From NCBI RefSeq assembly GCF_000003815.2, contig NC_049996.1, forward strand, positions 13,010,419-13,074,418: 64,000 nucleotides of DNA, read 5' to 3'. This document shows positions 12,386 through 55,615 of this stretch, piece after piece. The stretch's first letter is position 1; the number at the start of each line of letters is the position of its first letter. The notes under the pieces were generated by a model that saw nothing but the letters and a program-made list of their open reading frames with translations, was not told the origin of the DNA and made no database searches. The position numbers were made by a program, and so were the translations under genes. The stretch is from Branchiostoma floridae (Eukaryota; Chordata; Leptocardii; Amphioxiformes; Branchiostomatidae).

Positions 12386-12508
12386 TTATTCATCGTCACC
12401 TTCTTTCTTTGGCTCCTCGAAGCAAACACGAAAATAGCTACTGAGGAGTCTGTAAAGATGCCTCTTAGTCTTCTGTCCTTGTAGGTTGTGCGCTCGGTCA
12501 GTGTAGAA
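12386..12508 (-). CDS. DPP6/10-like: DPP6/10-like alternative terminal exon 23b (distal)
   Basis: Residues 757-796 in the alternative form. Acceptor CCATCCTTTCAG, phase 0 as needed; reads [30 protein letters not shown] and ends [10 protein letters not shown] before TAA. The same triad His is present. The acidic tail resembles the Glu/Asp-rich C-terminus of vertebrate DPP6. It lies 3.6 kb past exon 23a and looks like a tandem exon duplication used as a mutually exclusive last exon; a leftover of a duplicated gene is the alternative. Confidence 0.88.
   Translation of the reverse strand, partial: FYTDRAHNLQGQKTKRHLYRLLSSYFRVCFEEPKKEGDDE

Positions 12509-55615: not shown

Follow-up and report, generated by a model that had tools for sequence, protein, structure and literature searches.

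Gene structure

The window, a stretch of 64,000 nucleotides of the Branchiostoma floridae genome (contig NC_049996.1, positions 13,010,419 to 13,074,418), contains one DPP6/10-type gene on the minus strand (window positions 55615 to 12386), composed of 22 shared exons and one of two last exons. The exons were found with a tblastn probe, their codons and splice sites were read, exon 12 was taken from a splice scan, and the following exons were then joined.

Exon 1: 55568..55615, minus strand; start codon and 16 cytoplasmic residues, donor GAG|GTAAAC; link to exon 2 inferred from phase and position only
Exon 2: 41722..41836, minus strand; 14-residue motif and transmembrane helix, the DPP6/10 signature
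Exon 3: 40120..40212, minus strand
Exon 4: 39308..39402, minus strand
Exon 5: 38660..38734, minus strand
Exon 6: 37576..37628, minus strand; YRHS, with the Arg equivalent to DPP4 R125
Exon 7: 36659..36746, minus strand
Exon 8: 36113..36233, minus strand; DWVYE at its end
Exon 9: 35090..35247, minus strand; rest of DWVYEEE (DPP4 E205/E206)
Exon 10: 33985..34082, minus strand
Exon 11: 33386..33512, minus strand
Exon 12: 32737..32772, minus strand; predicted, 12 residues, best splice score of eight listed candidates, Trp as in DPP6
Exon 13: 29007..29114, minus strand
Exon 14: 27512..27609, minus strand
Exon 15: 25992..26158, minus strand
Exon 16: 25335..25382, minus strand
Exon 17: 23096..23191, minus strand
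Exon 18: 22300..22369, minus strand; V of V|YGGP, which is split over exons 18 and 19
Exon 19: 21427..21621, minus strand; (V)YGGP, with the Tyr equivalent to DPP4 Y547
Exon 20: 20559..20613, minus strand; GIWGW at its end, GW|SYGGY being split over exons 20 and 21
Exon 21: 18906..19070, minus strand; SYGGY with the nucleophile Ser (S649)
Exon 22: 17661..17819, minus strand; HGTADDN with the catalytic Asp (D731)
Alternative last exon 23a: 16148..16267, minus strand; LYTDKAH to DGVEL and stop, catalytic His and dimer-anchor His
Alternative last exon 23b: 12386..12508, minus strand; FYTDRAH to EGDDE and stop, catalytic His (H763) and dimer-anchor His (H773)

In both transcripts of the joined model, all 22 introns have GT...AG borders and the phases are continuous; the encoded protein has 795 residues with exon 23a (isoform a) and 796 with exon 23b (isoform b), and no stop interrupts the frame. 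Exon 12 and the junction of exons 1 and 2 are the least certain parts of the model. The motifs named in the initial annotation (the exon 2 signature, RHS, DWVYEEE, VYGGP, GWSYGGY, GTADDN and YTDxAH) are all present, and its exon numbering agrees with the joined model. A Pfam search with the full model revealed the domains DPPIV_N (2.8e-102) and Peptidase_S9 (1.2e-50), and a phmmer search with a hand-joined draft of 783 residues, lacking exon 12, matched PDB entries of DPP6 (E 2.2e-198), DPP10 (3.2e-172; ectodomain chain only), DPP4 (1.6e-167) and FAP (3.5e-151); the matches of both searches are far above chance. The protein, hereafter amphioxus DPP6/10, is taken to sit in the membrane in type II orientation, like the rest of its family, and its cytoplasmic tail is short. 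The intron directly before exon 14 contains a tandem repeat with a 99-nt unit (2.8 copies, 96% match, window 27656-27937).

Sequence similarity and active-site residues

The identity of isoform b to the human proteins varies by region. In the N-terminal/transmembrane (TM) region, it amounts to 63% with DPP6 and 53% with DPP10 (59 columns each) and 23% with DPP4 (35 columns); the respective values are 43%, 41% and 36% in the propeller and 38%, 40% and 50% in the hydrolase domain. The human DPP6 TM letters used here were confirmed by the PDB match, and those of the human DPP10 N-terminal/TM region are presumed to be correct. The features of the DPP6/10 lineage, namely the ELVGxNPxQRNWKG-type motif and the conserved TM helix, are present together with those of S9B dipeptidyl peptidases, namely the Ser-Asp-His triad, the Glu-Glu N-anchor, Arg125, the oxyanion Tyr547 and Asn710. 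The mark of the pseudopeptidases, the loss of the nucleophile Ser and of pocket residues, is absent from amphioxus DPP6/10, where Ser, Asp, His and the equivalents of Y547 and W629 are in place.

Fourteen DPP4 positions, which we take to represent the catalytic site and core pocket (R125, E205, E206, Y547, W629, S630, Y631, V656, W659, Y662, Y666, D708, N710 and H740), all carry the DPP4 residue in both isoforms, whereas eight of them (R125, Y547, W629, S630, V656, W659, Y666 and N710) are changed in both human DPP6 (DPPX) and DPP10 (DPPY), the potassium-channel partners of vertebrates with which amphioxus DPP6/10 shares the TM region, the propeller and the tree position. DPP4/CD26 and FAP, in turn, are just 23-26% identical to it in the N-terminal/TM region, but have the same catalytic triad, N-anchor Glu pair and pocket. 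The claim of the initial annotation that a DPP6/DPP10-type protein here keeps the full DPP4 catalytic site is therefore upheld by all 14 residues and the DPP6-like TM region.

In a wider set of 26 DPP4 positions, isoform b retains 19 and isoform a retains 18; the positions that differ are V207, S209, L294, V341, F357, R358 and W734, with the addition of Y752 in isoform a. Since F357 and R358 are changed, the S3 site of amphioxus DPP6/10 is unlike that of DPP4. The available part of a study on DPP10 (PMC4350108) reports that the access channel is narrowed in vertebrate DPP6 as well as in DPP10, in the latter by K77, K126 and E763; the amphioxus equivalents of these three residues are Asp, Asp and Asn (exon 23a) or Gln (exon 23b). 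Blocking of the DPP6 channel is attributed to three residues; one of these, K142, is Lys in amphioxus DPP6/10 too, judged by eye, and Arg in DPP4.

Phylogenetic placement

The trees included human members as the vertebrates, B. floridae as the only invertebrate, and bacterial DPP4 sequences as the outgroup (16 of 80 loci in the whole-ectodomain tree and the AU test, eight of these in the single-domain trees; two bacterial rows, L031 and L043, have an odd letter composition). The row of amphioxus DPP4 was assembled by hand from its exons; X stands for exon 12 and for the larger part of exon 14, and some junction residues are omitted. In the whole-ectodomain tree, amphioxus DPP6/10 joins DPP6+DPP10 with support of 99/97, and amphioxus DPP4 joins DPP4+FAP with support of just 88/79. 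A tree constrained to place amphioxus DPP6/10 in the clade of DPP4, FAP and amphioxus DPP4 is worse by 10.1 log units (AU p 0.014); the constraint that unites it only with human DPP4+FAP, with amphioxus DPP4 outside, makes the tree worse by 26.2 (p 0.0004). The phylogeny proposed in the initial annotation as a check has thus placed the whole ectodomain outside DPP4/FAP, and amphioxus DPP6/10 has neither the tree position nor the DPP4-like TM exon of a DPP4/FAP orthologue. Each domain analysed alone gives the same grouping with DPP6+DPP10 (propeller 83/80, hydrolase 88/87), with the DPP4-clade alternative left unrejected by the single-domain AU tests (p 0.15 and 0.11); in the hydrolase-only tree, amphioxus DPP4 does not resolve with DPP4+FAP.

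The branch lengths, in changes per column, differ by domain. On the DPP6/10 stem, the hydrolase value is 0.99 versus 0.45 for the propeller, and the tips lean likewise (0.62 versus 0.44 for DPP6, 0.53 versus 0.37 for DPP10); the opposite lean is seen in amphioxus DPP6/10 (0.53 versus 0.71), amphioxus DPP4 (0.33 versus 0.63) and the DPP4/FAP stem (0.35 versus 0.58). The closeness of the amphioxus hydrolase domain to DPP4 is best read as the probable retention of ancestral residues, with which the branch lengths by domain agree.

Related genes and a Kv4 gene in the genome

Searches of the genome with S9 and DPP4 queries, followed by reading of the loci, revealed at least three genes of the DPPIV family: DPP6/10, DPP4 and DPP8/9. 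Four of the 14 loci scanned (L001, L091, L092 and L097) match DPP4, DPP6 or amphioxus DPP6/10 at E 0.01. The separate DPP4 that the initial annotation had suggested looking for was found at C18:11.17-11.19 Mb (L091/L092), about 1.83 Mb from the DPP6/10 gene, and its likely TM exon is without the DPP6/10 signature; the DPP8/9 gene lies on C3, and the S9 search also matched loci on contigs C1, C7 and C17. A genome-wide search for a second channel-type TM exon gave no good match, the exon of the present gene scoring 68 bits and the next match 17.6 bits (E 3.2). An exon of Kv4 was found at C5:19.0 Mb (match to Kv4.2, 9.5e-209). Seven positions of the Kv4 S1-S2 interface are mentioned in the accessible text of PMC8566240, V190, A228, C231 and A235 among them; these four were compared, and amphioxus Kv4 keeps all of them.

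Two observations concern other loci. In amphioxus DPP4, no single frame bounded by consensus splice sites could be read through the exon 14 region; a frame break, a polymorphism or an assembly error may account for this. Locus L001 (C7:1489973-1490593) encodes an S9 peptidase-like domain in one open frame of 388 codons; it is the strongest Pfam S9 match in the genome and is 22% identical to amphioxus DPP6/10.

Decay of the active site in DPP6 and DPP10

Fixed columns were defined as those alike in DPP4, FAP, amphioxus DPP4 and at least 14 of the 16 bacteria. Amphioxus DPP6/10 keeps 48 of the 53 fixed hydrolase columns, whereas DPP6 has lost 17 and DPP10 14, with 11 lost in both; of the 39 fixed propeller columns, it keeps 35, and the losses are six in DPP6, seven in DPP10 and five in both, three of them to the same residue. 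Fisher tests of amphioxus DPP6/10 against DPP6 and DPP10 gave p values of 0.007 and 0.04 for the hydrolase domain and of 0.74 and 0.52 for the propeller, all of them rough because the columns are not independent. In six of the 11 hydrolase columns lost in both vertebrate proteins, the new residue is the same; five of these common substitutions (Y547D, W629K, V656I, Y666F and N710K) are absent from amphioxus DPP6/10, and the sixth, F730Y, is found there too.

The five common substitutions missing from amphioxus DPP6/10 point to decay after the cephalochordate split and before the separation of DPP6 and DPP10, and this interval, among the human and lancelet sequences compared, is where the site most likely decayed. 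Judging by the common substitutions, one decay before the separation appears more likely than two. The nucleophile position is occupied by Asp in DPP6 and by Gly in DPP10; as the residue differs, its last change may postdate their separation. Vertebrate DPP6 and DPP10 thus probably lost peptidase activity after lancelets branched off. The dating of the loss to the vertebrate lineage, put forward in the initial annotation, is narrowed by the common substitutions but falls short of proof with human and lancelet proteins as the chordates compared. On this reading, the chordate ancestor would have had a channel-type DPP with a full site, and the age of a well-known pair of pseudoenzymes would be narrowed.

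Proposed function

The gene is most plausibly the single channel-type DPP gene of amphioxus, pro-orthologous to vertebrate DPP6 and DPP10, and its product is likely to be both a peptidase and a Kv4 partner, with the site decaying later in the DPP6/DPP10 stem; we assign this reading a probability of about 0.8. Its foundation, namely the gene structure, the residues, the tree placement, the Kv4 partner gene and the separate amphioxus DPP4, was established directly. By analogy with DPP6, the most likely docking site of the cytoplasmic tail and helix would be S1-S2 in the voltage sensor of Kv4. The propeller/hydrolase ectodomain has most likely kept the ability to remove Xaa-Pro/Ala dipeptides, and catalysis would proceed via the putative triad Ser649-Asp731-His763; it is homology that suggests catalysis, Kv4 binding and dimerisation alike. 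One mutation could then separate the peptidase role from the channel role in this chordate protein.

A precedent exists among protostomes. Shiina et al. 2016 (PMC4873792) showed that fly DPP10 (NP_609051) both cleaves Gly-Pro-MCA and binds rat Kv4.3, which it modulates; they suggested that mammalian DPP6/10 lost enzyme features in evolution. Like amphioxus DPP6/10, the Drosophila protein combines the DPP6/10 TM region with a DPP4-like catalytic site, but it is described there as having three extensions in and near the propeller, while amphioxus DPP6/10 is of about DPP6 length. Since the dual peptidase/Kv4 role has been reported there for the fly protein, the idea is not new; of the pre-loss state envisaged in the initial annotation, a peptidase and channel partner in one protein, the intact site within the DPP6/10 lineage stands, while the two activities are proposed by homology.

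Amphioxus DPP6/10 might instead be a Kv4 subunit whose conserved peptidase site is idle in vivo or serves only structure or peptide binding. The excerpt of PMC4873792 gives the fly enzyme a relative kcat of about one-sixth that of human DPP4 and states that vildagliptin binding left the channel unchanged; the same amphioxus genome also holds a dedicated DPP4, and the S3 site is not conserved. Such a role is nevertheless unlikely given the fixed hydrolase columns kept, including the nucleophile and the oxyanion Tyr, and the shorter hydrolase branch (0.53, compared with 0.99 on the DPP6/10 stem), which together suggest continued selection on the enzyme.

Far less probable is a DPP4-family enzyme that acquired a DPP6-like membrane exon by exon shuffling or gene fusion. 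The 50% identity of the hydrolase domain to DPP4 and the single-domain AU tests, which leave the DPP4 clade in play, would fit such an origin, but the propeller is closer to DPP6/10 (43/41 versus 36%), each domain alone groups with DPP6/10, the whole-ectodomain test disfavours the DPP4 clade and the DPP4 gene found elsewhere in the genome has a probable TM exon of the DPP4 type; shuffling onto a DPP4 is rejected on account of the tree and this separate gene. A pseudogene is rejected in view of the intact spliced frame of 795 or 796 codons, and a chimeric model joining exons of different mRNAs is likewise very unlikely given the phase-consistent GT-AG introns, even with a gene model made from DNA alone, in which exon 12 and the link of exon 1 to exon 2 are predictions.

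Alternative last exons

The terminal exon 23a, absent from the initial annotation, has the same acceptor phase as 23b, giving the gene two possible 3' ends. Both exons encode YTDxAH, a dimer-anchor His and their own stop; in DPP10, H768 is reported to anchor the dimer (PMC4350108, text available in part). Over 34 codons, exons 23a and 23b have seven identical codons, 11 synonymous differences and 16 non-synonymous ones; dN is 0.42, dS is saturated and yields no value, and the introns preceding the two exons are 29% identical over 100 bases. The codon divergence, the saturated dS and the dissimilarity of the introns make the duplication look old, and both last exons have therefore probably been under selection for much of the time since. 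An AATAAA signal lies 215 nt past the end of 23a, and the nearest signals past the end of 23b are ATTAAA at 1581 nt and AATAAA at 2223 nt.

Tentatively, the gene may switch its catalytic-His exon between two old, mutually exclusive last exons; both supply the triad and dimer-anchor histidines, but the residues surrounding these and the C-terminal tails are different. The choice of splice or polyadenylation site could then tune the peptidase activity, the substrate range or the dimer partner of one Kv4 subunit. If true, the exon switch belongs to a lineage immediately outside the one where vertebrate DPP6/DPP10 lost catalysis, and the gene offers a natural pair of possible isoforms exchanging the catalytic-His exon. 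Among the matches listed in the literature search, no paper on the amphioxus DPP6/10 gene was found, the sole match for Branchiostoma with both dipeptidyl peptidase and DPP4 was a jellyfish transcriptome paper, and nothing relevant appeared on alternative last exons in DPPs or on how DPP6 lost catalysis. Within the reach of these searches, the chordate-outgroup state, the dating argument from common substitutions and the paired last exons are new.

Repeats in the window

Further tandem arrays lie outside the gene: a 49-nt unit in 39 copies (window 1-1898), a 24-nt unit in 38 copies (6836-7751) and an 89-nt unit in eight copies (60503-61226); strong swings of GC skew in window 1-8000 overlap the 49-nt and 24-nt arrays. 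An array of 26 copies of a 43-nt unit (window 8698-9811), downstream of and antisense to the DPP6/10 gene, contains six plus-strand matches to Rfam mir-2060, which score 59 to 84 bits (threshold 54.5) and point to amphioxus. Compared by eye, the 43-nt unit and bbe-miR-2060c-3p, a Branchiostoma belcheri microRNA given in PMC5650284, have 17 of 20 letters in common. Lancelets have GFP genes, but a Pfam GFP search of the genome gave no match; the controls of that search were silent as well, and GFP genes are divided into exons. The mir-2060 microRNA 'family' thus coincides here with a minisatellite.
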